The notes under the pieces: generated by a model
The model's database searches: none
Told to the model about the DNA's origin: nothing
Seen by the model: only the letters and a program-made list of their open reading frames with translations
Source of the DNA: Bacteroidetes bacterium GWF2_38_335
Lineage (GTDB): Bacteria > Bacteroidota > Bacteroidia > Bacteroidales > GWF2-38-335
Reading direction: 5' to 3'
Length of the DNA: 64,000 nucleotides
Assembly: GCA_001769535.1 (NCBI GenBank)
Contig: MEOH01000023.1
Location: 16,672 to 80,671, forward strand
Shown: piece by piece, positions 42,548 through 62,456 of the stretch
Numbering within the stretch: position 1 is the stretch's first letter
Layout of the letters: the number at the start of each line of letters is the position of its first letter
Translations under genes and position numbers: made by a program

Positions 42548-44407
42548 ATGAAAATAATATTTTTTATAGTTTCTTTTTGTTTCTGCATCGGAATTTATGC
42601 GCAAAATACAGGTATGTACAACGGAACGGAAAATCTCCAGGGAGAAGCCTTAAAAACCGCCTTGCACAACCTGATCAAGGACCATGTTCCCTATTCCTAT
42701 GATATGGTAAAGACCATCCTGGCCGAAGCGGATGCCGATCCTGCTGTCAGCGGCAATGTGATTTGCGTTTATTCGGGATTTTCAAGGGGGGCAGATACCT
42801 ATGGTACCGCTGGTGATGACATCCAGCGCGAACACGTTTGGGCCAAATCACATGGCGATTTTGGCACCGAACCGCCCGAAGGCAGCGACGCCCACAATCT
42901 CAAACCCGAAGATGCTTCGGTAAATGCCAGCAAAAGCAACCTCGACTTTGACAATGGTGGCGTTCAGCATACCGAAGCCACTGATTGCTATTACGACAGT
43001 GATTCCTGGGAACCCCGCGACGAGGTAAAAGGCGATGTGGCCCGTATAATCTTTTATATGGCTACCCGGTACGAAGGCGAATCTGGCGAACTGAATCTGG
43101 AAATGGCCGATTACGTTGACACCTACCCATATGCTTTGCATGGCAAAAAATCTACCCTACTGCAATGGAACAACGATGATCCCGTTGACGAATTTGAAAT
43201 GAACCGCAACAATGTCATTGAAAGCTATCAGAAAAACAGAAACCCTTTTATTGATAACCCGAATTTTGCTAACCTGATCTGGAGTTCCTATGCACTTCCT
43301 GCTATCATTTTTGGTAATTTTTCCACTTCTCCCGAATTTCCTACTCATTCCGATAATGTTATCATTTCGGTTGATGTTTCAACAGTTGTTGGAGTTTTAA
43401 ACCCGGTTACACTTTATTGGGGAACTTCTTTGGGAAATTTGACAAATGCAGTGACCATGACCGGCTCAGGAGGCACTTTTACCGGAACAATCCCTGTTCA
43501 ACCCGAAAACACAACAGTATACTACAAGGTAACTGCTTCAAACGGCTCAGACACTGAAACCTCCATCATGTACAAATATCTGGTTCCCGAAAGTTTCGAA
43601 GGAACAATTACCACCATTCAGGAAATACAGGGTGAAACAACCTCTTCACCATTTGTTGACCAGACTGTTTCAACAACCGGAGTGGTAACCGGAGTTTTTG
43701 CTGAAGGATATTTTATTCAGGACGGCACAGGCCCCTGGAGCGGACTGTACATTTTTGATTCAAATTACACTCCGAATATCGGCGACAGCATTGTGGTTAC
43801 CGGTACAATAACTGAATATTACAGTCTGACCGAACTCAAATGGCTTACTGCCTCATACCTTTGCGGGATAAACAAAACCGTTCCGGCTCCCATTTACATC
43901 ACCACAGGTGGTTCGGCAGAAATGTACGAATCGGTTGTGGTCGGCGTAACCAATGCCACCTGCGAAGATGCAGATGCGGGTTACGGCATGTGGACAGTCA
44001 ACGATGGTTCAGGAACCATATACATCCATAACACCGAAAGGTTTTCCTATAACCCCACAGTGGGATTGGAATATACTGTAACCGGACCGTTAAACTACAC
44101 CTACAGCGAGTACAAAATTGAACTCAGGAATTCGGATGATGTGCAGTTGGGTAGTTCGGTCAGTGAATTGGCCAATGCTTCAAAATTAAATATTTATCCA
44201 AATCCGGCCAGCGACCAGATATTCATTGAATTAAAAGAAAAACCTGACCGGATTGATGTCTATAATTCGACCGGAATGCTTGTAAAATCAATTAAAACCA
44301 ATGATTTCAAAACCGGACTAAATCTTACCGGATTTGATTCTGGTTTATATTTTTTGAGAATATTTGCAGGTAATAATATTTTTACCGGAAAATTTTTGAG
44401 GGAGTAA
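42548..44407 (+). CDS. Secreted endonuclease I-family nuclease with T9SS sorting domain
   Basis: A 619-residue protein with signal peptide (ending GIYAQ). Residues 25-250 are an EndA/endonuclease I (PF04231-like) domain. The catalytic His lies in QREHVWAKSHGDFG, and further metal-site residues in SDAHNLKPEDASVNASKSNLDFD. A central Ig-like module follows (PLYWGTSLGNLTNA-type strings), then an OB-like DUF5689-related module (GETTSSPFVDQTVSTTGVVTGVF...YFIQDGTGPWSGLYIF). The T9SS domain begins LNIYPNPASDQIFIEL. Such enzymes cut DNA and RNA without specificity in the medium. With the EEP protein and TonB receptor it suggests nucleic-acid use as a nutrient. Confidence 0.9.
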   Translation: MKIIFFIVSFCFCIGIYAQNTGMYNGTENLQGEALKTALHNLIKDHVPYSYDMVKTILAEADADPAVSGNVICVYSGFSRGADTYGTAGDDIQREHVWAKSHGDFGTEPPEGSDAHNLKPEDASVNASKSNLDFDNGGVQHTEATDCYYDSDSWEPRDEVKGDVARIIFYMATRYEGESGELNLEMADYVDTYPYALHGKKSTLLQWNNDDPVDEFEMNRNNVIESYQKNRNPFIDNPNFANLIWSSYALPAIIFGNFSTSPEFPTHSDNVIISVDVSTVVGVLNPVTLYWGTSLGNLTNAVTMTGSGGTFTGTIPVQPENTTVYYKVTASNGSDTETSIMYKYLVPESFEGTITTIQEIQGETTSSPFVDQTVSTTGVVTGVFAEGYFIQDGTGPWSGLYIFDSNYTPNIGDSIVVTGTITEYYSLTELKWLTASYLCGINKTVPAPIYITTGGSAEMYESVVVGVTNATCEDADAGYGMWTVNDGSGTIYIHNTERFSYNPTVGLEYTVTGPLNYTYSEYKIELRNSDDVQLGSSVSELANASKLNIYPNPASDQIFIELKEKPDRIDVYNSTGMLVKSIKTNDFKTGLNLTGFDSGLYFLRIFAGNNIFTGKFLRE

Positions 44408-49375: not shown

Positions 49376-49454
49376 GAGCTTTTAATTTAAATTATTTCTA
49401 ACACAGTGTTTTTTTAACTATTGATAACCATAAATCAGTATGCTCAATATTATG

Positions 49455-49512
49455 GGTGCAAAGTTTAAATATTGCCCATTAAAATCATAACCATTGGGAA
49501 CATTTTTGAAAC
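49455..49512 (-). promoter_or_regulatory. Conserved promoter-type element, copy A
   Basis: The plus strand reads GGTGCAAAGT (49455-49464), then 25 bases, then ACCATTGGGAACATTTT (49490-49506) followed by TGAAAC. On the minus strand this is a conserved upstream site, then TTTGC as a -7-like box, upstream of the gene starting at 49375. GCAAA begins exactly 32 bases before ACC, as in copies B and C. Candidate LytTR-type activator site. Confidence 0.6.
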
Positions 49513-49554
49513 GATAATAAGCAAAGTCGTCAGATTCGGGAAACAATTCAGGTT

Positions 49555-50442: not shown

Positions 50443-50541
50443 TGTACTGTTTTATTATTGTTTTACGTAAACAGCAAACTCCGTTTGCCAAAATTCAATT
50501 TTGTTTCTTCTGATCCAATTTTTCTATTTTCATTTGTTATA

Positions 50542-50599
50542 GGTGCAAAGTATGAATAATTATCACTTAAACCAAAACCATTGGGAACATTTTTGAAAC
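50542..50599 (-). promoter_or_regulatory. Conserved promoter-type element, copy B
   Basis: Plus-strand GGTGCAAAGT (50542-50551), 25 bases, then ACCATTGGGAACATTTT (50577-50593) followed by TGAAAC. It is identical to copy A in both boxes and in spacing, while the bases between them differ. It lies upstream of the minus-strand gene starting at 50442. Confidence 0.65.
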
Positions 50600-50727
50600 A
50601 TTAAAGAGCGTATCGTGTGGGGTGTTAGCGTCTGATTTACACTTCCATTCAATCAATCCGGTTATAAATTGCACCTCAAGAAATCATTACAAAACTAATG
50701 CTGTGAGTACAAACCATGAAATACCAT

Positions 50728-51234
50728 CTATTGCAAATTTATTCTTCCTTGAATTCGCAAAATATAACTTGTATCATCATAAAAAGCATCCATCCTTCTC
50801 TGTTGGGTTGACTTGAATATAGGGTGCTGTTTATTTGAAATATATGCAAGCTTCTTTTTAAAATTATCAGCAATTTCAGTATCTTCAAATGATTCAATAG
50901 TTGATTTTAATTGAGGTATGGCATCTTCAACCCAAGCATTTCCCTGTGCATCTCTATCTTTTAATTCAACAAAAATGACAGTTGAATTATAGGTTAACAT
51001 TCCATCACATCTTTGTTTCATCTTGCCATCTGATCTAAATATATCAATACAATTATCAATGGCCGTGAAAGTAACTTGTTTTTGACTTTCATTTTCCACA
51101 ACTGCAATCCAATTTGCTCCATTCAATTCGTCAATGTAAGCAGGATTCTTTGCAGGAGCCGGGTCATCACAAAGTCCAAATGTCCTTTTGCTTGAATTTG
51201 TCTGACATTTCGATTTACAAAAGTTAATAATCAT
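50728..51234 (-). CDS. PD-(D/E)XK-like nuclease, partner of the upstream ATPase
   Basis: A 168-residue protein that I cannot assign to a named family. Its core reads QRCDGMLTYNSTVIFVELKD near residue 75: an Asp, then a short strand, then Glu-Leu-Lys, matching the PD-(D/E)XK nuclease active site (D-x(n)-ExK). A Gln in DAIPQLKSTI follows, as the motif often has, and then the strand KKLAYISNKQHP. Basic residues (QQRRMDAF) lie near the end. The start overlaps the ATPase stop by four bases (51231-51234), so the two are translationally coupled. Likely a DNA or RNA nuclease controlled by the ATPase. The function is inferred. Confidence 0.6.
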   Translation of the reverse strand: MIINFCKSKCQTNSSKRTFGLCDDPAPAKNPAYIDELNGANWIAVVENESQKQVTFTAIDNCIDIFRSDGKMKQRCDGMLTYNSTVIFVELKDRDAQGNAWVEDAIPQLKSTIESFEDTEIADNFKKKLAYISNKQHPIFKSTQQRRMDAFYDDTSYILRIQGRINLQ

Positions 51235-52490
51235 ATACCCTGTTGTATTTCTAATAGTTGAGCAAATAATTCGTTTGAATCTTCTAAATTAAAATTCAAC
51301 TGGTTTTCATCAGAAGGCAGGCCTTTGTAATCAGGTAGTTTTTTGATTGATCCATCTCTTTCATTTAATTCAAATATTATCAAATCATCTGCCTTTACTG
51401 CTGAAGCTATAGGAACAATTTCATTTGTTTGTAAATACTCAGGATCACTTAATTTATACTTGTTTTTTCTTAATAATTTATAAATGTTGTCAGCTTTAAC
51501 AGACAATGTCAAATAATTTATTAAATATGGGCTATGGGTTGTCATGATCAATTTATTGCCCTCATTCATATTGTTAAATTCCAAAAGACTAAAAAGCATT
51601 TGCTTTTGTGATGTGGGAAAAAGATTTTGCTCCGGTTCTTCAACAATATTAATAAAAGCTGATTTATTAAATTTGTGAGATAAAACTGATAAAGCAACTC
51701 TTCTTTGCTCTTCGGTCAATGATTCGTTGTCCCAAATTTCCTCAACACCTTTTCTAAAACGCTCAAGTTCTTCGGTACTCATTGATTCTTGTGATACCTG
51801 TGATTGTTTTTTTACTGAATTAGCAAGGAACCAAGAAACTAAATACAATGGAACCAATGACTGAAAACCACTTGATGCCTCGGTCAAACGCAATTTATAG
51901 TTATTTCCTTTAATGTTAACAATGTCATTTAATTTGTCATATTCAATATCCACATCATTTATTGGCAAACGCATTGCTCCTTTTATTTCATTTTTTGCCT
52001 TATCAAATTCAGATAAAAATTCTTTTAATGAATCTGAAGATAATTTTAATTCTTTCGGACTTTTAACATTTGCAATGAAATTCCTTTCAGCGGGAACGTA
52101 CATTATTTGCGGCAGGTAATAATTATGTTTTTTATTTTCAATAATTTCAAGCAAACCAGTCCTGTATTTAATAGTATAAGCTTCGCCTTCATAGTCAAAT
52201 TCTGTATTATCAAATAAACCTTCAAAGCCATCAAAATAGTTCTCCAGTCTGTGATAATTCAAAAACTGGTTTTTCAACCTGTTTTTTTTCTCAAACCACT
52301 TTTTCTGATAGTCACCTCTTACCAACGCCTTTTCAATCCAAGTGAAAGTCGAAATCAACTTAGCAACCGTACTTTTACCAGAACCTTGGTTGCCGATAAA
52401 AATCGTGACTTTATTTATTTCAAGCCATCCATCATTCTCCAAACAACCCTCTTTTATTGGCCCAAAGTTTTTTATTCTAATTCTACTCAT
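51231..52490 (-). CDS. AAA/ABC-type ATPase (AAA_15/AAA_21-like) of a two-gene module
   Basis: A 419-residue SMC/ABC-like ATPase. The start is MSRIRIKNFGPIKEG, typical of OLD/AbiL/RloA-type ATPases. Walker A is IGNQGSGKSTVAKLIS (residues ~32-47), the signature-like loop is LTEASSGFQSLVPLYL (~200), Walker B is FINIVEEPEQNLFPTSQ (~280) and the H-loop is TTHSPYLINYL (~315). No TOPRIM domain follows it, unlike OLD nucleases. The downstream gene encodes a PD-(D/E)XK-like protein. ATPases of this type sense phage or foreign DNA in several defence systems (PARIS, Septu, Abi). Confidence 0.85.
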   Translation of the reverse strand: MSRIRIKNFGPIKEGCLENDGWLEINKVTIFIGNQGSGKSTVAKLISTFTWIEKALVRGDYQKKWFEKKNRLKNQFLNYHRLENYFDGFEGLFDNTEFDYEGEAYTIKYRTGLLEIIENKKHNYYLPQIMYVPAERNFIANVKSPKELKLSSDSLKEFLSEFDKAKNEIKGAMRLPINDVDIEYDKLNDIVNIKGNNYKLRLTEASSGFQSLVPLYLVSWFLANSVKKQSQVSQESMSTEELERFRKGVEEIWDNESLTEEQRRVALSVLSHKFNKSAFINIVEEPEQNLFPTSQKQMLFSLLEFNNMNEGNKLIMTTHSPYLINYLTLSVKADNIYKLLRKNKYKLSDPEYLQTNEIVPIASAVKADDLIIFELNERDGSIKKLPDYKGLPSDENQLNFNLEDSNELFAQLLEIQQGI

Positions 52491-52792: not shown

Positions 52793-53887
52793 CTATTTAT
52801 CAAACCCCTTTTTCCATTCAATCAAATCCTTGTTGTTCGGGTAAATCTCTAATCCTTTATCTATTACTTCTTCAGAAAACTGTAGTGATTTTTCATTAAA
52901 AAGGTGATTGTAATCATTCTCATAAGCTGAGGCAATGCTAAAGAAAAAGGATAAACCCGGCAGCAGTTCATAGCTGTATTTTTCGGATAGCTTATTATAT
53001 TCGCCAAAAAACTTTTCCCAGGGTACTTTTTCGCTGTTTGTTTTTGAATTAATGATTTCAAAACAATTATGAATGCATCTCTCGTAATCCGAAAATATAT
53101 CAACCAAGCTCAAAATAACAGTCTGAGAGGGCGTAGTGGTATGAGATGCATTTAATTTGAAATATTTCCATTGCAGGTTTTTTGGAACAGGTTTGGTTTT
53201 TAAATAATCAGCCAAACTGTCGCATGCACTTTCATGCATGTCTCCATGGCTTTCTAATCCCGATGAAAAATAAATAAAATGGTTCTTTTGGATTTTTGAC
53301 AAAGTATCCAAATAGCTTCTAAATTGTTGCTTTTGATACTTGTCGTTAAAATCAAAATTGGAGGCACTGCTTGCAATTACACCATTAAAAAAATCAGGTC
53401 GCCTCGAAATGGCATAAAGTGAGAAAATGGCAGTCCGGGAGTGGCCGATCAACAGGTTAAACCCTGAAACCCGATATTCCTTTTTTAACTCAAGGTACAG
53501 TTCCCTGGTAATAAAGTCAATAAGTTTATCGGCTTTTCCATTTAAAGTATCAGGGACAGTCCATTTTGTCCTTTTTTGAGGATCAAAAGAGATACCAATA
53601 ACAATGGCATTGGGAATGGTTCCAAATGTTGTTAAGTAATCAATGGTATGAAGGTTATAATGATAATTTACAGTATTTTGTTTGTCAAGCAGATAAAAAA
53701 CAGGGTAGGAAACCATTTGGGAACATGAGTATTCAATGGGTAATAATATCTCAACAGATACTGAATCATTTAAAAATTTCGAAAAGCAGGTTTTTCTGAC
53801 CGGCTCATCCAAGGATTCATATAATTGTGATTTCGCATCAAAAAAAACAAGCAAAAAGAACACTGAAAGCAAAAAGTATTTCATCAT
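52793..53887 (-). CDS. Exported alpha/beta-hydrolase (IroE/esterase-D-like)
   Basis: A 364-residue protein with signal peptide (ending FDAKSQ). Residues 25-275 match putative-esterase (Fes/IroE/YbbA-type) hydrolases: FYLLDKQNTVNYHYNLHTID, NAIVIGISFD, the nucleophile elbow LIGHSRTAIFSLYA (Gly-His-Ser), and the catalytic His in LNASHTTTPSQ. A C-terminal 90-residue helical extension follows. Siderophore or antibiotic ester is a typical substrate; none can be named here. Element C lies 51 to 102 bases upstream of the start. Confidence 0.8.
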   Translation of the reverse strand: MMKYFLLSVFFLLVFFDAKSQLYESLDEPVRKTCFSKFLNDSVSVEILLPIEYSCSQMVSYPVFYLLDKQNTVNYHYNLHTIDYLTTFGTIPNAIVIGISFDPQKRTKWTVPDTLNGKADKLIDFITRELYLELKKEYRVSGFNLLIGHSRTAIFSLYAISRRPDFFNGVIASSASNFDFNDKYQKQQFRSYLDTLSKIQKNHFIYFSSGLESHGDMHESACDSLADYLKTKPVPKNLQWKYFKLNASHTTTPSQTVILSLVDIFSDYERCIHNCFEIINSKTNSEKVPWEKFFGEYNKLSEKYSYELLPGLSFFFSIASAYENDYNHLFNEKSLQFSEEVIDKGLEIYPNNKDLIEWKKGFDK

Positions 53888-53937
53888 AACGGATCAATTT
53901 TGAGCATTACCGATCGTTCTGGCAAATTAACCGCAAA

Positions 53938-53989
53938 ATAGCAAAAATTGCTGTTATAAATTGTTGTTTTTTACCGTTTGGAACATTTT
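53938..53989 (-). promoter_or_regulatory. Conserved promoter-type element, copy C
   Basis: The plus strand has GCAAA at 53941-53945 and ACCGTTTGGAACATTTT at 53973-53989. The distance from GCAAA to ACC is 32 bases, the same as in copies A and B. ACCGTTTGG matches the published LytTR half-site form [TA][AC][CA]GTTN[AG][TG] exactly. It is upstream of the esterase gene and 70 bases from the LytS-type kinase start on the other strand. Confidence 0.6.
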
Positions 53990-54028
53990 ATTTCCAAAAA
54001 CCGGTTAAGGTCACATTTGCAAAATACC

Positions 54029-54053
54029 AATGTTCCATATTTTGTATATTTGC
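54029..54053 (+). promoter_or_regulatory. Promoter region of the LytS/LytTR operon
   Basis: TATATTTG at 54045-54052 (followed by C) is a strong -7 box. AATGTTCC at 54029-54036 is the reverse complement of the GGAACATT core of the nearby element C. The -7 box is only seven bases from the chosen ATG at 54060, so the mRNA would be almost leaderless. Confidence 0.55.
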
Positions 54054-54059
54054 ATAGCA

Positions 54060-56063
54060 ATGGTAAAAAAAGGTATCCTGATATTATTAATATTGATAAT
54101 TTCAAATCAATGTGTCCCGCAGGACAGTGTTGATTCATTAAAACGTATAATCAATTCAAATGTTCATGACACAACACGTGCTGTGGCGTTATATGACATC
54201 TTGAATTTCCTGCCATTGGGTGAATGTGAACATTATAACGACCTTCTGATTTCATTTTCAGAAAAAATTTTGACCGGACAAAAAGTAAAATCACCAATAA
54301 ATAAACGTTTCAGGCCATTTTTAGCGGAAGGATATTACAATAAGGGGGTTTTTCTATCAAACAGGAATTGTAATGACAGTGCATTGTTGTTTTATGCAAA
54401 GGGATTGCGCGAATATAGGATACTTAAGGACAGTCAAATGATTGCTTACAATTTGATGAACATGGCCATTATCCATACTTCAAAGGGAGATTTTACAAAG
54501 GCAACAGATCTATTGTATTCATCTTTGCGTATTCATGAAAAGGACAACAATATGGAAGGGATCGGCGATACCTATATGCATATTGCAAGGGTGTATCATA
54601 TCCAGGAAGAGTACGAAGAAGCAATCAAATTCACAAAAACAGCATTGACGGCATATAAAAAGGCGGACTACAAAAACGGGATGATAGAAGCACTCTATAA
54701 GCTGGGATTTATTGAACTGGATTTATTGCATTTTACAAAAGCAAAGAATAATTTCCTAAAATGTATTGATCTGGCAAAAAAAATCGGGATCAAAGACAAA
54801 ACAAAGATTGACCAGATGCTGTACGCGTGTAATGGCTACCTGTTCTATCATGATAATAAGCCGGACAGTGCCATTTATTATTTCAAGAAAAGCATTGATC
54901 TGGCAGGTTCAACAAAAGAAACATATACTTTAGGAACCAGATACCTTGACCTTGCCAGGGCATATTTCAAAAAAAAGCAGCATACCGAAGCATCCTTTTA
55001 TGGAAACAAATCGCTTGAAATAGCTGTGGAAACAAAAAATATTGATTTACAATTTGACGTATCATTCTTCTTGTCACTGGTTTATAAAGATTCCCGCAAC
55101 TTTGAAAAAGCTTTTGAAATGCAGGAAATCCACTTGATCCTGTATGACAGCATCCAGAAAGAAGAGCAAAAAAAGGCAGTCCTGAAACAACAATTAAAAT
55201 ATGAATTTGAAAAAAAGGAACTACTGGAAAAGGCAAGGCATGAGGATGAAATAAAAACAATTATTAGTGATAAGGAAAAGAGCAATATGAAAAAAAACAG
55301 CCGGTTTATCATCCTGGTCATTGTTGTTCTTGGTATTGCAATTATTGCTTTTTTTATGTTCAGAAACCAGAAACAAAAAAATATCATTGAAATTCAGAAT
55401 TCAAACATTTTAAGGCAGAAGTTGTTGCTTGCACAGATGAACCCCCACTTTATTTTCAATTCGATAAACAGCATTCAAAGCTGTATACTGCAAAAAAGAG
55501 AGCTTGATGCCTATTCGTACCTTGCCAAATTCGCCAAGCTAATCCGTATGGTGCTCAACAATTCAGAAAAAGACTATATTCCCATATACGAAGAAGTCGA
55601 ATTAATCACATTGTATATCGAAATTGAACAACTTCGTTTTGATAATTCATTTGATTTTGAAATAATTGTTAATGAAGAGGTAGATGACCAGAATATCAAC
55701 TTGCCTCCTATGATTGTTCAACCTTATGTGGAAAATGCAATTTGGCACGGTATAATGAACCTTGATAATAAACGTAAAGGAAAATTGGCATTGACTTTTT
55801 CCAGAAAAGATAAGTTACTTAAAATAGAGGTACGGGATAACGGGGTTGGCCGTATAGCATCCGAGGCATATAAAAATGACAGGGAACATAGGCCAATGGC
55901 CATGAAACTGACAAGAAAAAGATTGGAACTATTGAATGATCTGTATAGAAACAATGGAATTGACGTTGTGGTCCATGACCTGTATGATTCGGACAATATC
56001 GGTTGCGGCACCATTGCAGAGATTTACCTTCCGATTAATTTTCATGGTAAAGATTATGAGTAA
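54060..56063 (+). CDS. TPR-containing sensor histidine kinase, LytS/YehU type
   Basis: The start at 54060 (MVKKGILILLILIISNQC) gives a signal or anchor sequence; a frame extending to 54030 would include the promoter. 667 residues. The periplasmic N-half is a series of about six TPR units (ALYDILNFLPLGE ... GIGDTYMHIARVYHIQEEYEEAIKF). A coiled coil and one membrane span (FIILVIVVLGIAIIAFFMF, about residue 420) follow. The cytoplasmic end is a His_kinase/HATPase pair: phospho-His in QMNPHFIFNSINSIQSC (His 463), N-box YVENAIWHGIM, G-box VRDNGVGRIAS. It signals to the LytTR regulator encoded next. Confidence 0.92.
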   Translation: MVKKGILILLILIISNQCVPQDSVDSLKRIINSNVHDTTRAVALYDILNFLPLGECEHYNDLLISFSEKILTGQKVKSPINKRFRPFLAEGYYNKGVFLSNRNCNDSALLFYAKGLREYRILKDSQMIAYNLMNMAIIHTSKGDFTKATDLLYSSLRIHEKDNNMEGIGDTYMHIARVYHIQEEYEEAIKFTKTALTAYKKADYKNGMIEALYKLGFIELDLLHFTKAKNNFLKCIDLAKKIGIKDKTKIDQMLYACNGYLFYHDNKPDSAIYYFKKSIDLAGSTKETYTLGTRYLDLARAYFKKKQHTEASFYGNKSLEIAVETKNIDLQFDVSFFLSLVYKDSRNFEKAFEMQEIHLILYDSIQKEEQKKAVLKQQLKYEFEKKELLEKARHEDEIKTIISDKEKSNMKKNSRFIILVIVVLGIAIIAFFMFRNQKQKNIIEIQNSNILRQKLLLAQMNPHFIFNSINSIQSCILQKRELDAYSYLAKFAKLIRMVLNNSEKDYIPIYEEVELITLYIEIEQLRFDNSFDFEIIVNEEVDDQNINLPPMIVQPYVENAIWHGIMNLDNKRKGKLALTFSRKDKLLKIEVRDNGVGRIASEAYKNDREHRPMAMKLTRKRLELLNDLYRNNGIDVVVHDLYDSDNIGCGTIAEIYLPINFHGKDYE

Positions 56064-56814
56064 AATTAAAGCCATCATAATTGATGATGAAAAAAACAGC
56101 AGGATTGTCCTTAGAAACCTCCTTGAAAGCGAGTTTGGCGAAATAGAAATAGTTTCTGAAGCATCAAGTGCAGATGAAGCATATAACAAAATAAATACCC
56201 ATACTCCTGATTTGATTTTTTTGGATATTCAAATGCCTAAAGCAAACGGTTTTTCATTATTAAAAAGATTTGAAACAATTGGTTTTGAAATCATTTTTGT
56301 GACAAGTTTTGATAATTATGCAATAAACGCTATTAAATTCAGCGCATTGGATTACCTGTTAAAACCAGTGGAAATTCCTGATTTAAGAGCTGCTGTGCAA
56401 AAAGCAATTGTTACCATTGTTAAAAAAGAAAACAGCCAGCCACAAATAATTAACCTAATAAACAGCATCAGCAACGAAAACTCAGATAAAAAGATAGCGG
56501 TGCATACAGGAAATAAAGTGAAACTAATCAGTATTCCACAGATTATGTATATCGAAGGGGACAGGCGCTATTGCCATTTAAACTTAATTTCGGGCGAAAA
56601 ATATGCCTTGGCAAAATACCTTAAGGACTTTGAAGATTTCTTTGAAAACACCTCGTCTTTCATCAGAATAAGCAAAGGGTTTATTATCAATGCCGCCCAC
56701 ATTAAAGAGTACAGTAAAGGTGACCCTTTTATTATTAAAATGGCCAATGATATTACCTTTGAGGTTGCCAGAAGGCGTAAAAAGGAAATATTGGAGAAAA
56801 TTAAAAAATTCTGA
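56056..56814 (+). CDS. LytTR-family response regulator
   Basis: The start at 56056 (MSKIKAIIIDDEKNSRIVL) overlaps the kinase stop by 8 bases; an ATG at 56044 would also fit. 252 residues. The receiver domain (1-120) has the acid pair DDE and the phospho-acceptor Asp in LIFLDIQMPKANGF (Asp 57), and a Lys in LLKPVEIPDL. The C-terminal LytTR DNA-binding domain (150-252) is typical: IPQIMYIEGDRRYCHLNLISGEKY and FIRISKGFIINAAHIKEY. LytTR proteins bind imperfect direct repeats upstream of their targets. The kinase/regulator pair acts as one unit. Confidence 0.95.
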   Translation: MSKIKAIIIDDEKNSRIVLRNLLESEFGEIEIVSEASSADEAYNKINTHTPDLIFLDIQMPKANGFSLLKRFETIGFEIIFVTSFDNYAINAIKFSALDYLLKPVEIPDLRAAVQKAIVTIVKKENSQPQIINLINSISNENSDKKIAVHTGNKVKLISIPQIMYIEGDRRYCHLNLISGEKYALAKYLKDFEDFFENTSSFIRISKGFIINAAHIKEYSKGDPFIIKMANDITFEVARRRKKEILEKIKKF

Positions 56815-56916
56815 TTTACAGTCACTTGAAAATACAATTATCAATTGGGTGTTATTTTTGATTTTCATTCCAATCTTAAACTATTCAAGCACTACATCAG
56901 TGAATCATTATAAAAA

Positions 56917-57183
56917 TCAAACCAGTTTCACATCAATGCTTTCTTTGGTATAAGGCCTTCTCCTCGCTTTAATTGTTACAATATCATCGGGAATGGACTT
57001 GTCAAAACTGATATCAATACCATTCAATATGGGCGAAACGTTTGTTATGGAATTGATATCTTTGATGCCATACATTGCCGAAAGTATTTTTTTATAGGTG
57101 GTTACGCTCATTATTAAATTTGCTTTTTCTCCATCCATCATTTCAAGAATGCTGAAAAAGTCATTAAACTGTATTTGTGTCAT
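56917..57183 (-). CDS. Small protein of unknown function
   Basis: An 88-residue protein (MTQIQFNDFFSILEMMDGEK... VSPILNGIDISFDKSIPDDI). Not recognised. TACATTTG on the minus strand (complement of 57207-57214) is a -7-type box 24 bases before the start, supporting it as a real gene. Its mid-part reads as alternating short strands. Confidence 0.5.
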   Translation of the reverse strand: MTQIQFNDFFSILEMMDGEKANLIMSVTTYKKILSAMYGIKDINSITNVSPILNGIDISFDKSIPDDIVTIKARRRPYTKESIDVKLV

Positions 57184-57493
57184 TGGTCAGGTCTTTATTT
57201 CCATTGCAAATGTAAGGCAACCCAACCAAATATGGAAATGCTTTTATTAAAACAGGCAAAAATACCTGTGATAATATAATCTGCAACAGAAATAAATAAA
57301 ACAGTATAATGAGCGTGTTTTGTTAATGGAAAGATTTTCCTCAAAAACAAACAAATTGAAAATCGAAATGTAGCAACTGTTAATAAAATCAGGTCGGGAT
57401 GTACTTATTTTTCTCCTGATTGAGAAAACTGTTTGAGAAGATGATAATTTTGAAATAAATTGCAAAAGTATTTTAATATTTAAATTTTTAACC
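57184..57493. other. Intergenic region, mostly unassigned
   Basis: About 310 bases between the small gene and the DUF1697 gene. It holds the probable promoter of the minus-strand gene (57207-57214) and a weak ACAGG/CCTGT hairpin near 57255. No other feature was found. Confidence 0.4.
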
Positions 57494-58048
57494 ATGATCT
57501 ACGTCGCCCTTTTAAGAGGAATAAATGTTGGTGGTAAAAATATAATGGAAATGAAAAAGCTTAAAACCACCTTTGAATCGCTCGGGTTTACTAATGTTGT
57601 AACATATATCAATTCGGGCAATATTATTTTTGAAGATGTGTCGAGAGAAGAAAGCGTGATTGTGAGGGAATTGGAAAAAGCTATTGAAAAAGACTTCCAA
57701 CTGGAAATTAAAGTTTTAATACGAAGCTCAGAGAATATTGCAACAATTTGCCGTGAATTGCCAGGCACCTGGTTGAAAAATGAAACTATGAGAACTGATG
57801 TCATGTTTTTATGGGAGGAATTTGACCGGCCTGAAGTTTTAGACCTGTTGAAAATCAATCAGGTTGATCAGGTGAAATATGCTGCCGGTGCAATATTGTG
57901 GAATGTTGAAAATAAGGATTACAACAAAAGTGGAATGATAAAACTTGTGGGTACGAAGCTTTATAAAAACATGACCATTAGAAATGTCAATACAGTTCGT
58001 AAGCTTAATGAAATAATTACCTCCATTAATGAGCACAACAATGGATAA
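57494..58048 (+). CDS. DUF1697-domain protein
   Basis: A 184-residue cytoplasmic protein, the usual length for DUF1697. It opens YVALLRGINVGGKNIMEMKKLK and continues with FTNVVTYINSGNIIFE, both hallmarks of this family. Biochemical function is not known. Such single-copy accessory genes often move with cassettes or islands. Confidence 0.85.
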   Translation: MIYVALLRGINVGGKNIMEMKKLKTTFESLGFTNVVTYINSGNIIFEDVSREESVIVRELEKAIEKDFQLEIKVLIRSSENIATICRELPGTWLKNETMRTDVMFLWEEFDRPEVLDLLKINQVDQVKYAAGAILWNVENKDYNKSGMIKLVGTKLYKNMTIRNVNTVRKLNEIITSINEHNNG

Positions 58049-58184
58049 AAAATCCAACATGGGGTCCAGAAACAATGAAAGTGCTATTTTCAAAATTAAT
58101 ATTCCTGGCAGGCTGCTCATTTTACAGAACTAACTTAACCGAAAATACTCAATAAGCAATGACTCTTTTTTAAACTATATAACT

Positions 58185-58583
58185 ATGCAACAAATTAAAC
58201 TTTTTGAAGCAATATTATATGTCAGCGACCTGAAAGCAAGCTGTGAATTTTATCAAAAGATATTCCGTAAAGCCCCTGACCTGAATGTTCCCGGCATGAC
58301 AGAATTTATTATATCCGATAATTCCAAAATCGGGCTGATGCCAAACAATGGCATTGCAAAAATACTATCGGGAAATACCCCCCACCCTGATAGCGGGAAC
58401 GGGATTCCACGATGCGAACTGTATTTGGTTGTAGAGGATGTAATGTTAGAATTTGAAAATGCGATAAAAAACGGTGCAAAACTGGTAAGCCCGGTTGTTG
58501 ACAGGGATTGGGGGGACAAAGTATGCTACTTCTCAGACCCGGACGGGCACATCATTGCATTTGCAGAAAGAATTTCACAGTAG
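58185..58583 (+). CDS. VOC-superfamily (glyoxalase/bleomycin-resistance-type) protein
   Basis: A 132-residue protein of the vicinal-oxygen-chelate fold: two beta-alpha-beta-beta-beta units (LFEAILYVSDLKASCEFYQKIF near the start, DWGDKVCYFSDPDGHIIAFAE near the end). Members are metal enzymes or drug-binding proteins; the substrate is not evident. It starts 136 bases after the DUF1697 gene. Confidence 0.8.
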   Translation: MQQIKLFEAILYVSDLKASCEFYQKIFRKAPDLNVPGMTEFIISDNSKIGLMPNNGIAKILSGNTPHPDSGNGIPRCELYLVVEDVMLEFENAIKNGAKLVSPVVDRDWGDKVCYFSDPDGHIIAFAERISQ

Positions 58584-58949
58584 TGATAATGCACCTTGGT
58601 ACTCCTGATTTTCAAAGATGAAAATTAGAATATAGTGACATTTCATGCTTTTCGAAGCAAAATGCTTTACATTTATTGATGCATTTTATCCTTTAATCAA
58701 TTTCGCCTTACTTTCCTACTTTAAATTATATCTTTTTCGAAAAAAAAGTTTAATATTGTTTAGTGGATAATTATTTAGAAACAAAAGAAGACAATGACGA
58801 TATTGTATTTATAAATTCCTTGATTAATTTATAAATGTTATTTAACTATATAAAATCAATCCCTGTTATTCGTAAGGAATTAAAGCCATTGCCTATTTAA
58901 AAACATTTTTTCAATGAGCAATTGAAAGAAAATTATAGGAGATTTTGAA
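58584..58949. other. Intergenic region upstream of the hybrid kinase
   Basis: 366 bases, AT-rich, without a recognisable gene or RNA. It should hold the promoter of the hybrid kinase, but I saw no clean -33/-7 pair. Confidence 0.4.
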
Positions 58950-61900
58950 ATGATTTTGGTTCAAAATTTACATTTTTTTTGCCTTTTGACCTATGCTTTT
59001 ATGGCAATTTATATATTATTGAAAGATCCAAAAGCTTTACTAAACCAAACTTGTGCGCTATTGATCTTTTCCTTTTCAGTATGGAATTTTATTGACGTAT
59101 TTTCAGTCTATGAAAATTTTTCCAGGGATACTGTTATCCTCTTTCAGAATGTTACATCAATAGGGTGGATAAGTTTTCCAGGTTTTCTTCTTTGTTTTTC
59201 ACTTGTGTTTTCTAAAAATGAGAAGATATTAATGAAAAAATGGTTCCTGGTTACAGTTGTTGCTTTGCCTTTATTATTTATTTTTCAGCAATTCAGCAAC
59301 AGCCTTACCGACAGTCCAGTATTGGGGATGTATGGCTGGGAATTTGCATGGTCAGAAACAGTCTGGACCTATTTTTATTATATTTATTATGTGTCTTTTT
59401 CACTTATTTCAGCCCTTTTAATTTATTTGTATAAGGTAAAGACAAAGTATACAATTGAGAAAAACCAGGCCAAAATATTGGTGCTGACTTTATTGTTTTG
59501 TTTAATCGGTGGTACAATTACTGATGTATTGCTTCCATTATACCATGTGAAAGGGGTACCTCAATTGGGCAATATAATTTTACTTGTTTTTGCAGGGGGA
59601 ATGATCTACTCGATTTTGAAATATAAATTTTTATTGGTCACGCCAGCAATCGCGGCTGAAAATATCATTTCAAATATGGAGGAAATGTTGATCCTGACAG
59701 ATAAAGACGGAATTATCCTGAATGTCAATAATTCTGTACACAACACATTAGGGTTTGAAAAAAAGGACTTAGAGGGAAAATCAATCGAAATACTATTTTG
59801 CCAGGACGATTTTAAAGCTTTCCTTTTAAAAAAGATATCTCAGGACGAGGCGATAAAAAACCATGAAACAATAATTCTCAATAAAGATTCAAAAAAAGTA
59901 CCAATATCAGTATCATGTTCATTATTAAAAGATAAGGAACATGAAAAAAGGGGGATTGTTTTTGTAGCTAGGGACATATCAGAAAGGAAAAATGCAGAGA
60001 GAGTTTTTTTTGAAAGCCAACAGGTATTCAAGATGCTTGTTGAAAACTCCCCGGACATTATTGCACGTTATGATATTAATTGTCAACGTACTTATGTCAA
60101 TCCAGAATACCTGAAAACTGCCCAAATGGCACAACAGGAATTGATTTCTTCATCACCGCAACAATGTTCCCCATTACCTGCTGAAAGCGCCATAATCCTT
60201 CAGGATCTTTTGAAAAGGGTTATCAGTACCGGTATAGCGGAAGCTGTTGACCTCAAATGGAGGAAGTCAGACCAGCAGGATTATTGGTATAATGTATATG
60301 CATTTCCGGAGTTTGGGCAAGATGGCAATGTTGTTAGTGTAATGACTAATTCCCGTGATATAACTAAGAGCCGGAATTCTGAAGCTGAGATTGCGCGTGT
60401 TAACCGGGCACTTAGGATGTTAAGCGATTTTAATCAGGCACTGATACATATTTCAAATGAAACTGATTTATTAAAAGCCACTTGCAGGATTGCTGTTGAT
60501 GTTGGTGGTTACCGTATGGCATGGGTCGGATATATTGAACATGATGAAGCCCGGACTTTACGTCCTGTAACCCATGCAGGATACGATTCAAAATATATTG
60601 AAAATGCAAGGATTAGTTGGGGCGATAATGAGCGTGGGCGAGGCCCCGGAGGAACTTCTATAAGAACAGGCCAACCATGTATTGTGCGAAATATTCAAAA
60701 TGATCCCACTTTTAAACCATGGAAAGAAGACGCCATTAAGCATGGTTATAATTCAATTATTGCATTACCATTAATTATTGAAGGCCAATCATTAGGAGCA
60801 ATAGGAATTTATTCCACAGAAGCCGCAATATTCGATATAAAAGAAGTTGAGATTTTAAAAGAACTGACAGCAAACTTGTCATTTGGTATTTTTTCCCTGC
60901 GTACCTTAGCTCATAAAAATCAAGTTGAAAAAGCCCTGAGTGAAAGTGAAAAGAAATATCGTGATTTGTTTGAGAATGCCGGTGATGCAATTTTAATAGC
61001 CGATGTTGAAACAGGTATTATTGTTGATGCAAATAATGAAGCGGAAGTACTTTTAGGCAGGAAGAGGAATGAAATTATCGGCATAAACAGATCAGAAATT
61101 CATCCTTCTGATAAGTTTGAATTATATAATGAACAGTTTAGAAACCATATTAAAGCCGGTTTAGTTAAAGATATGGAATCAGAGATTGTGATGAAAGACG
61201 GAAAGCTTATTCCGGTTAGTATAAGTGCAGTTGTGATTAATCTTAAGGGAAGAAAGGTTATTCAGGGCTTTTTCAGGGATATTTCTGAACGCAAGCAGGC
61301 CGAGAGCGAAATTATTAAGGCAAAGGAAAAAGCTGAAGAAAGTGACCGTTTAAAATCAGCGTTCCTCGCTAATATGAGTCATGAAATACGCACACCGATG
61401 AACGGTATTCTTGGTTTTGCCGGACTTTTGGCAAACCCAAATCTGTCTGGCGAAAAGCAGCAAGAGTATATTCGGATCATAGAATATAGCGGAAGGCGGA
61501 TGCTTAATATTATTAATGATATTGTTTCTATCTCTAAAATTGAATCCGGACAAATGGAAATTTCCATTTCAAAGACAGATGTAAATGAACAGATAGAATT
61601 TCTATATAAATTCTTCAAACCCGAAACAGATAAAAAAAAGATATTGCTTTTCTATGATAAGTCACTTTTAGCAAAAGGACTATATTTAAACACTGATAAG
61701 GAAAAACTATATTCAATCCTGGCAAACCTTATTAATAATGCCATTAAGTTTACAAATTCAGGATCTATTGAATTTGGCTATATAATTAAAGATGATTGTA
61801 TTGAATTTTTTGTAAAAGATACTGGTGTAGGTATTCATTCTGAACTTCATGAATCAATTTTTGAAAGATTCAGACAAGGCAGCGAAGCCCTTACAAGAAA

Positions 61901-62456
61901 TTATGAAGGATCGGGCCTGGGGTTGACTATTTCTAAAGCTTATGTTGAAATGTTGGGAGGAAAAATATGGTTAAAAAGCGAAACAGATAAAGGATCTGAA
62001 TTTTATTTTACACTGCCTTTCAATGTTGATTCGAATGAAATGATTGGTACAAAAGCAAATTCTCCTGCTTTTAAAGAGCAATCAGAAAATATTAAAATCA
62101 ATATTTTAATTGCTGAAGATGATGAAACTAACGTGCTGCTTATTCAAATACTTATTAAGCAATACTGCAAAAAGGTGTTTTTGGCGAAGACAGGTGTCGA
62201 AGCTGTAAATATTTGCCTGAACAATCCTGAAATTGATTTAGTGCTGATGGATATAAAAATGCCAGGGATGGACGGTATTGAAGCCATTAAAAAAATAAGG
62301 GAGTTCAACAAAAACATCATAATCATTGCTCAAACAGCTTATGCTTTATCGGGTGACAGAGAAAAAACCATTAAAGCAGGAAGTAACGATTATATTTCAA
62401 AACCCTTTAATGAAGAAAAACTCCATTTATTGATAGAAAGGTATTTTGGAAGGTGA
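58950..62456 (+). CDS. Large hybrid sensor histidine kinase (7TM-PAS-PAS-GAF-PAS-HisKA-HATPase-REC)
   Basis: A 1168-residue membrane protein. Residues 1-225 have seven hydrophobic spans, as in the HisKA_7TM sensor type. Then come a PAS domain (~235-350, ENIISNMEEMLILTDKDGII), a second PAS (~355-475, FKMLVENSPDIIARYDINCQ), a GAF domain (~490-650), a third PAS (~665-790, YRDLFENAGDAILIADVETG), HisKA (MSHEIRTPMNGILGFAGLL, His 811), HATPase (LINNAIKFTNSGSI, VKDTGVGIHSELHE, GSGLGLTISKAY) and a C-terminal receiver (LVLMDIKMPGMDG, phospho-Asp 1101). The receiver is fused, so a downstream histidine phosphotransferase or regulator is expected; none lies next to it. It probably integrates redox or small-molecule cues. 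Confidence 0.92.
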   Translation: MILVQNLHFFCLLTYAFMAIYILLKDPKALLNQTCALLIFSFSVWNFIDVFSVYENFSRDTVILFQNVTSIGWISFPGFLLCFSLVFSKNEKILMKKWFLVTVVALPLLFIFQQFSNSLTDSPVLGMYGWEFAWSETVWTYFYYIYYVSFSLISALLIYLYKVKTKYTIEKNQAKILVLTLLFCLIGGTITDVLLPLYHVKGVPQLGNIILLVFAGGMIYSILKYKFLLVTPAIAAENIISNMEEMLILTDKDGIILNVNNSVHNTLGFEKKDLEGKSIEILFCQDDFKAFLLKKISQDEAIKNHETIILNKDSKKVPISVSCSLLKDKEHEKRGIVFVARDISERKNAERVFFESQQVFKMLVENSPDIIARYDINCQRTYVNPEYLKTAQMAQQELISSSPQQCSPLPAESAIILQDLLKRVISTGIAEAVDLKWRKSDQQDYWYNVYAFPEFGQDGNVVSVMTNSRDITKSRNSEAEIARVNRALRMLSDFNQALIHISNETDLLKATCRIAVDVGGYRMAWVGYIEHDEARTLRPVTHAGYDSKYIENARISWGDNERGRGPGGTSIRTGQPCIVRNIQNDPTFKPWKEDAIKHGYNSIIALPLIIEGQSLGAIGIYSTEAAIFDIKEVEILKELTANLSFGIFSLRTLAHKNQVEKALSESEKKYRDLFENAGDAILIADVETGIIVDANNEAEVLLGRKRNEIIGINRSEIHPSDKFELYNEQFRNHIKAGLVKDMESEIVMKDGKLIPVSISAVVINLKGRKVIQGFFRDISERKQAESEIIKAKEKAEESDRLKSAFLANMSHEIRTPMNGILGFAGLLANPNLSGEKQQEYIRIIEYSGRRMLNIINDIVSISKIESGQMEISISKTDVNEQIEFLYKFFKPETDKKKILLFYDKSLLAKGLYLNTDKEKLYSILANLINNAIKFTNSGSIEFGYIIKDDCIEFFVKDTGVGIHSELHESIFERFRQGSEALTRNYEGSGLGLTISKAYVEMLGGKIWLKSETDKGSEFYFTLPFNVDSNEMIGTKANSPAFKEQSENIKINILIAEDDETNVLLIQILIKQYCKKVFLAKTGVEAVNICLNNPEIDLVLMDIKMPGMDGIEAIKKIREFNKNIIIIAQTAYALSGDREKTIKAGSNDYISKPFNEEKLHLLIERYFGR

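Follow-up and report, generated by a model that had tools for sequence, protein, structure and literature searches.

The window, a 64,000-nucleotide stretch of contig MEOH01000023.1 from Bacteroidetes bacterium GWF2_38_335, carries on its minus strand two overlapping genes, which we call A and B. Gene A (51231..52490) encodes an OLD/PtuA-like ABC ATPase of 419 residues and gene B (50728..51234) a predicted PD-(D/E)XK nuclease of 168 residues; both were identified as open reading frames, by the PADLOC models PDC-M29A and PDC-M29B, respectively, and through structural models, gene A being recognized by Pfam as well. The stop codon of A and the start codon of B share four nucleotides (ATGA, 51231..51234), as stated in an initial annotation of this DNA, and the two genes are predicted to be translationally coupled through this overlap. 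The order A-B on one strand was found in all of the 34 other loci that carry both genes (loci holding relatives of the window pair are designated below by L-numbers such as L002 or L003). The overlap was again of 4 nt in 22 of them and of a different type in 8, while a broken frame precluded a judgement in 4. Several of these loci hardly differ from each other, and they do not represent 34 independent events; the A-B arrangement is nevertheless more than chance.

Gene A displays the ATPase motifs listed in the initial annotation, all on the minus strand. The Walker A motif (GNQGSGKS, residues 33-40; 52371..52394) is invariant in eight aligned sequences, that of the window included. Sequence alignment also indicated an ABC signature-like SSG (residues 206-208, within ASSGFQS; 51867..51875), a Walker B motif with EEPEQN (residues 278-289; 51624..51659) and the histidine of the H-loop (residue 319, within THSPYL; 51534..51536). 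In an alignment of 32 A sequences of at least 340 residues, counting that of the window, none departed from GKS in Walker A, from EEPE or from HSP; the six most distant sequences read EEPEL, and letters of Walker A and of the signature vary. Pfam recognized AAA_15 (4.1e-14) and AAA_21 (2e-9) in gene A. With its 419 residues and no TOPRIM match in the Pfam search, gene A does not have the ATPase-TOPRIM fusion of Gabija and OLD. PrrC and RloC are single proteins in which an ATPase is fused to an anticodon nuclease, a nuclease domain of another type; the Pfam search revealed no further domain in gene A, and the present system comprises two genes.

A structural model was obtained for A (pLDDT 78.5, pTM 0.82). 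With Foldseek (best E-value 4e-8), Septu or retron complexes, chiefly through their PtuA chains, filled rows 1-37, ahead of an SMC head in row 38. VIA-align placed PtuA of retron Ec78 at the top (Z 16.8, rmsd 3.9, 273 aligned), followed by Rad50 (15.9) and then by SMC heads. The Pfam matches and the model thus agree with the initial annotation and support the conclusion that A is an OLD/Septu-like ABC ATPase without TOPRIM.

Gene B carries CDGMLTYNSTVIFVELK, as read from its sequence, which corresponds to the D-x(n)-ExK arrangement initially proposed, with the spacing D-x12-ExK-x15-Q. Alignments delimited this catalytic-type motif (C76-D77 ... E90-L-K92 ... Q108; 50911..51009, minus strand) and a D60-N-C62 element (51049..51057, minus strand), which is conserved together with C10 and C76. 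In 16 aligned B proteins, there is no variation at C10, D60, C62, C76, E90 and K92 and almost none at L91 and Q108. D77 is a Glu in L004, L005, L022, L032 and L034 and hence not invariant, and the B protein of L026, outside this alignment, has a Gly at the position of D60. Six very distant B-like partners, in which C-D, E, K, Q and three more positions are invariant, were found to be homologous to the B set by profile comparison (hhalign 99.1%, E 6.6e-19).

No match was found for gene B in Pfam at E <= 1 or in NCBIfam at E <= 10, and neither Pfam nor PADLOC gave a match to TOPRIM, HNH, PtuB, DUF4435 or AriB at E <= 1. Because Pfam, PADLOC and NCBIfam provided no such match, we rejected B as a TOPRIM, HNH or DUF4435 partner, in keeping with what had been claimed initially. 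The model of B is modest (pLDDT 67, pTM 0.66); in it, the ExK strand is followed by a helix bearing Q108 and then by a strand and a helix. Foldseek returned nothing under an E-value of 0.001, its top rows being clamp loaders, which were not significant. In a second structure comparison, rows 1-20 consisted of Cdn1, Card1, Can2, FokI, XisH, VC1899, McrBC (McrC), CdiA-CT, AF1548, SduA and EndoMS, at Z-scores of 5.4-6.9, a range (below 8) for which the tool warns that a match may correspond to a common arrangement. We take these entries to share the PD-(D/E)XK fold. Acetyl-CoA carboxylase came next, in rows 21 and 22, and the GTPases Rab and Rag further down, below row 40. As regards the nuclease fold foreseen in the initial annotation, the best rows are of this type, but Z does not exceed 6.9 and Foldseek gave no significant match; the model resembles PD-(D/E)XK nucleases only weakly. 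B looks like a PD-(D/E)XK nuclease, an assignment that is carried by the motif and not by the model alone.

The pair had been presented as a possible undescribed defence module. When compared with PADLOC-DB, gene A matched PDC-M29A (PDLC04562; E 5.6e-190) over residues 1-417 of 419, and gene B matched PDC-M29B (PDLC04563; E 3.1e-65, with a second model at 2e-31) over residues 1-167 of 168. PDC-M29 is a candidate of PADLOC-DB 2.0.0 (models PDLC04562-PDLC04564), and the window pair has its A model, its B model and their adjacency with A first; we found no difference between the two, the order and adjacency being the same and the matches near full length. The exact A-B pair is therefore an already catalogued defence candidate, which is the outcome that the initial annotation itself had named as contradicting its proposal. 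PADLOC 'PDC' entries are described as mostly unvalidated candidates obtained through guilt-by-embedding (PMC12988326) and as unpublished candidate systems (PMC11811056). Neither the name PDC-M29 nor a functional test of this family was found in open-licence PubMed Central papers, preprints excluded. Thus, the defence part of the initial proposal stands, whereas 'undescribed' does not, because the pair matches PDC-M29 and because WonAB (PMC12137116) already characterizes the kind. We find the defence and nuclease reading plausible, the pair being probably an anti-phage defence of a known kind.

Within the phylum to which the window belongs, 29 of 395 genomes (the source genome counted among the 395) gave PDC-M29B matches, as against none of 14 control genomes. 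At all 18 of the strongest B places in the 395 Bacteroidota genomes (at least 154 bits; at most four candidates per genome scored in full), a strong PDC-M29A was directly adjacent, upstream, indicating that the two genes are conserved together. Among 21 strong A places (> 440 bits), 20 had an adjacent B match, which was weak in two cases. The lone A without B (G284:C8; L107, 3171-8572) adjoins a methyltransferase gene (PADLOC MTase_II, 2.4e-66). Visual inspection of the surroundings of this orphan suggested a gene of restriction-enzyme size and another ABC ATPase, whose 207-residue CD...ELK...Q partner received no name from PADLOC at 1e-10. A scan of 84,980 species genomes with short exact peptides disclosed eight close relatives, all of which bear names of Bacteroidota. 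At an E-value of 1e-5, one B relative was found in plasmid records, in Persicobacter, and none in a phage collection; none was confirmed in a scan of IMG/VR viral contigs. On the basis of these two viral searches, a phage-borne pair was rejected.

A characterized parallel is WonAB of Vibrio, which likewise consists of an OLD-type ABC ATPase and a small PD-(D/E)xK nuclease encoded by a two-gene operon (PMC12137116). As in systems of this kind, A has the ABC motifs (Walker A and B, signature, H-loop) without a fused TOPRIM, and its partner B has the D/E...ExK catalytic-type motif. WonAB acts by abortive infection, with arrest of translation, and requires both its ATPase and its nuclease residues; WonB is toxic only with WonA, and the nuclease is predicted to bind C-terminal extensions of the ATPase (PMC12137116). 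WonAB is described there as prophage-borne, whereas B had no match in the phage collection. PD-T4-4 and operons of an OLD-ABC ATPase with a REase are named as similar to WonAB (PMC12137116), and a survey presents OLD-ABC ATPases paired with HNH, PD-(D/E)XK or PIN nucleases as backup effectors (PMC12839542).

PD-T4-4 also combines an ATPase with a nuclease, and the partners of its relatives have an invariant D...ELK...Q core. However, the A protein of the window reached only 6.3e-11 with PD-T4-4_A, and B had no match to PD-T4-4_B at E <= 1. Profile comparison of B with the partners of PD-T4-4_A-like ATPases (PADLOC PDC-M47B, PD-T4-4_B) gave 80.7% and an E-value of 1.3e-5; the comparison with PDC-M56B was marginal (35%). 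The resemblance of A to the ATPase of Septu and retron PtuAB is one of fold only: its model is nearest to PtuA, but its sequence is far below the PtuA level (best PtuA model 8.1e-12; 34 bits for a cut-off of 500 with NCBIfam). The Septu partner is an HNH protein (PMC13096335), whereas B had no HNH or PtuB match; Septu PtuAB cuts tRNA-Tyr and needs both activities (PMC13096335). PARIS (AriA-AriB) shares the ATPase family (AriA model, 2.6e-17 for A) and the two-gene logic of a sensor and a nuclease, but AriB is a TOPRIM protein and B was not matched by AriB.

We consider it probable that the window pair is a two-gene anti-phage system of the 'OLD-type ABC ATPase + PD-(D/E)XK nuclease' kind, in which an ATPase sensor is predicted to control a nuclease that aborts phage infection. 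Support for the defence reading includes the PDC-M29A and PDC-M29B matches, the adjacency, order and overlap of the genes, the conserved motifs, the likeness of the A model to PtuA and, more weakly, of the B model to nucleases, and the parallels with WonAB and Septu, as well as the predominance of silent substitutions, the hsd placement of some relatives and the link between the histories of B and of the C-terminal extension of A, these last three described below. On the other side weigh the modest model of B, the Glu at position 77 in several relatives, the gene counts and the few independent embedding events reported below, and the lack of a defence gene among eight scanned neighbours of the window pair. 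In the predicted succession of complex formation, sensing, nuclease activity and abortive outcome, A would pair up as ABC heads do, and the small nuclease B would be held via the C-terminal extension of A. The core of A would sense a phage-caused signal, which the ATP cycle would read so as to switch B on; B would then cut cellular nucleic acid and the infection would be aborted. As for the substrate, our slight preference for tRNA over DNA stems solely from the mode of action of related ATPase-nuclease systems.

Alternatively, B might act directly by cutting or nicking phage DNA under the guidance of a DNA-sensing ATPase, the host surviving, in a restriction-like, Gabija-like manner. PD-(D/E)XK enzymes are mostly DNases, and the model of A also resembles the DNA-binding Rad50 and SMC heads. 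Yet, searches of A and B with Pfam, PADLOC and NCBIfam revealed no domain for target recognition, and the targets of the nearest systems that have been characterised are tRNA or translation (PMC13096335, PMC12137116). We deem a direct action on phage DNA unlikely.

The comparison of gene B between the window and L002 indicated a dS of 0.84 for a dN of 0.12. Most of the other comparisons also favoured silent change, some being saturated, and the closest pair compared (L011/L012) was near even, with 0.053 to 0.040. A number of copies are interrupted: in L009 (3253-6378), an insert of about 2.4 kb with three minus-strand ORFs splits B, A being intact; L005 has an in-frame TAG in B and L021 a TAG in A; and L033 is decayed. 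In L002 (5701-6501), B is intact and A is reduced to about its last 100 residues, in two frames. Since most of A is gone there, B appears not to be lethal alone. This argues against a toxin-antitoxin-like addiction module or a general stress module that would not be directed primarily against phages, as do the embedding in restriction operons and the fact that WonB likewise needed WonA for its toxicity (PMC12137116). Although the small size and overlap of the pair and its several broken copies would fit such a module, we find it very improbable.

As regards the genomic surroundings of the relatives, Type I restriction genes were present in 6 of 28 loci examined, four of the 28 being weak or distant members: L003, L040, L046, L050, L051 and L055. 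In all of these except L055 (5 of 28 loci), hsdS and hsdR enclose the pair, which is on the same strand as the hsd operon, with gaps that are mostly small. In each of the five, PADLOC identifies both the specificity and the restriction subunit; in L055 it identifies the latter, an ORF being predicted there on the opposite strand between B and hsdR, and the contig comes to an end upstream. The HsdR sequences are 78-95% identical among L040, L050, L051 and L055, and that of L003 is 84% identical to that of L046. Independent embedding events are therefore few, as the embedded loci represent about two restriction-operon types. Other genes accompany the pair: a 146-residue gene preceding A in L003 and L046 matches the first part of DarG (8e-71 and 1.3e-66, respectively), QatA, QatB and QatC are found between hsdS and A in L040, and SoFic/PDC-S04-like and PDC-S05 genes between B and hsdR in L051. 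In L040 (5911-19998), one long same-strand run reads hsdM-hsdS-QatABC-like-...-A-B-...-hsdR, in which a Type I restriction operon encloses several defence modules. The 477- and 1053-residue genes of L042, which have the size of restriction genes, were rejected as such, having no PADLOC match at 1e-20.

Counted by locus, hsd genes occurred in 6 of 28 test loci (423 kb in sum) and in 2 of 29 control regions (245 kb), a contrast that is weak because the control is shorter, its places were hand-picked (many being contig starts) and the search was made with six query proteins. Counted by gene, the enrichment was not clear: among the 25 most frequent families listed, the commonest MTase_I model was found in 5 of 137 neighbours and 3 of 133 controls, and the most frequent Specificity_I model in 4 neighbours and 2 controls. 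These figures refer to 137 of 147 non-redundant neighbours (176 picked, outside L056 and L057) and to 133 of 180 control proteins. Control counts being similar, we rejected a defence-island enrichment by gene count; the real signal is the position inside hsd operons.

This position would suit a restriction guardian, in which the ATPase senses the inhibition of the Type I enzyme by a phage, as in PrrC and PARIS, and then sets the nuclease free; this would be a more restricted version of the explanation that we favour. PrrC resides within a Type IC locus and responds when the latter is inhibited, and both PrrC and PARIS are called restriction guardians (PMC12707154). Placement in an hsd operon is common to PrrC and to some relatives of the window pair, but the window copy itself is outside any hsd operon; elsewhere in its genome, on contig C11, Type I subunits were matched at places no more than 7 kb apart. 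In 22 of 28 loci, moreover, no Type I gene was found in the stretch examined, some stretches being short. Embedded genes can also act without their host operon. This is the case of TgvAB, a two-gene system of Vibrio inside a Type I operon, which protects without HsdR restriction, though less strongly than the whole cluster against several phages (PMC11411939). Overall, a guardian function seems doubtful to us.

Returning to the broader reading of a sensor ATPase controlling an abortive nuclease, we found one feature of the family that is new to us: the trees of the ATPase core and of the C-terminal extension of A conflict with each other, that of the extension being nearer to the tree of B. 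The middle of the window's A protein (residues 191-290) resembles those of L015 and L024, with 66-88% identity, whereas its C-terminus (371-419) resembles that of L003 (73%), and B is 76% identical to B of L003; the middle of the A protein of L003 is only 40-44% identical to that of the window. For 18 pairs, picked from those in which both genes could be read, the distances for B were correlated with those for residues 331-419 of A, i.e. the extension (51234..51500, minus strand; r 0.70), and not with those for residues 141-290 (r -0.11), and the difference between the two correlations was above 0 in 300 of 300 column bootstraps. Without L003-L005, r amounted to 0.30 for residues 141-290, 0.41-0.42 for residues 1-140 and 0.69 for the extension. 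The contrast between core and extension is thus partly driven by L003, L004 and L005, whose cores are very divergent.

In tree tests, the core tree and the tree of extension plus B reject each other (AU 5e-5 and 4e-59), and AU rejects every exchange of trees among the parts of A and B. Compared with its own tree, the extension lost 34 log units on the B tree, 86 on the core tree and 111 on that of the N-terminal part; the B tree was rejected for the extension (AU p 0.001, SH 0.09) much less strongly than the core or N-terminal tree. For the N-terminal part of A, the tree of the core was the best fit after its own. As the extension and B are neighbours on the DNA, linkage alone could hold them together. 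The conflicting trees lead us to a reading in terms of recombination, and suggest that a front module and a back module have been exchanged. With less confidence, we predict that the extension of A is the docking place of B, as predicted for WonAB.

If module exchange is confirmed, swaps of core and back module would separate the phage-sensing part from the nuclease-binding part, a question that concerns ABC-ATPase sensors with nuclease partners in general. What was a catalogue entry thereby becomes open to experiment as a system of two modules, for which catalytic residues are named, a docking segment is predicted and the genomic context points in part to restriction operons. More speculatively, PDC-M29 might be a modular restriction-linked alarm, in which an exchangeable sensor core for different phage signals is recombined with a C-terminal dock and nuclease. 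It might ride between hsdS and hsdR as exchangeable cargo, along with Qat, DarG-like and SoFic genes, and the conserved cysteines C10, C62 and C76 of B may point to a variant of the nuclease fold that is under metal or redox control. We hold this composite picture to be quite unlikely.

In the window itself, eight neighbours of the pair were scanned with PADLOC, a TPR histidine kinase and the ORFs at 54030-56063 and 55936-56814 not being among them; none gave a convincing match, the best being a response-regulator domain (0.0015), which weakens the initial description of the surroundings as rich in accessory genes. A scan for promoters and terminators yielded nothing above chance. Just downstream of B, a 73-nt direct repeat with 79% identity is present at 49450-49522 and 50537-50609. 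A cassette array, which this repeat suggested, was rejected, the 21-nt core having only two occurrences in the genome at up to 2 mismatches; by eye, the repeat reads as remnants of a duplicated gene end. Beside the pair (52793-62456), Pfam indicated an esterase, a TPR histidine kinase, a DUF1697 protein and a large PAS/GAF hybrid histidine kinase. On the other side, the gene at 42548-44407 encodes an endonuclease I (PF04231) that is predicted to be secreted and carries a type IX secretion sorting tail.
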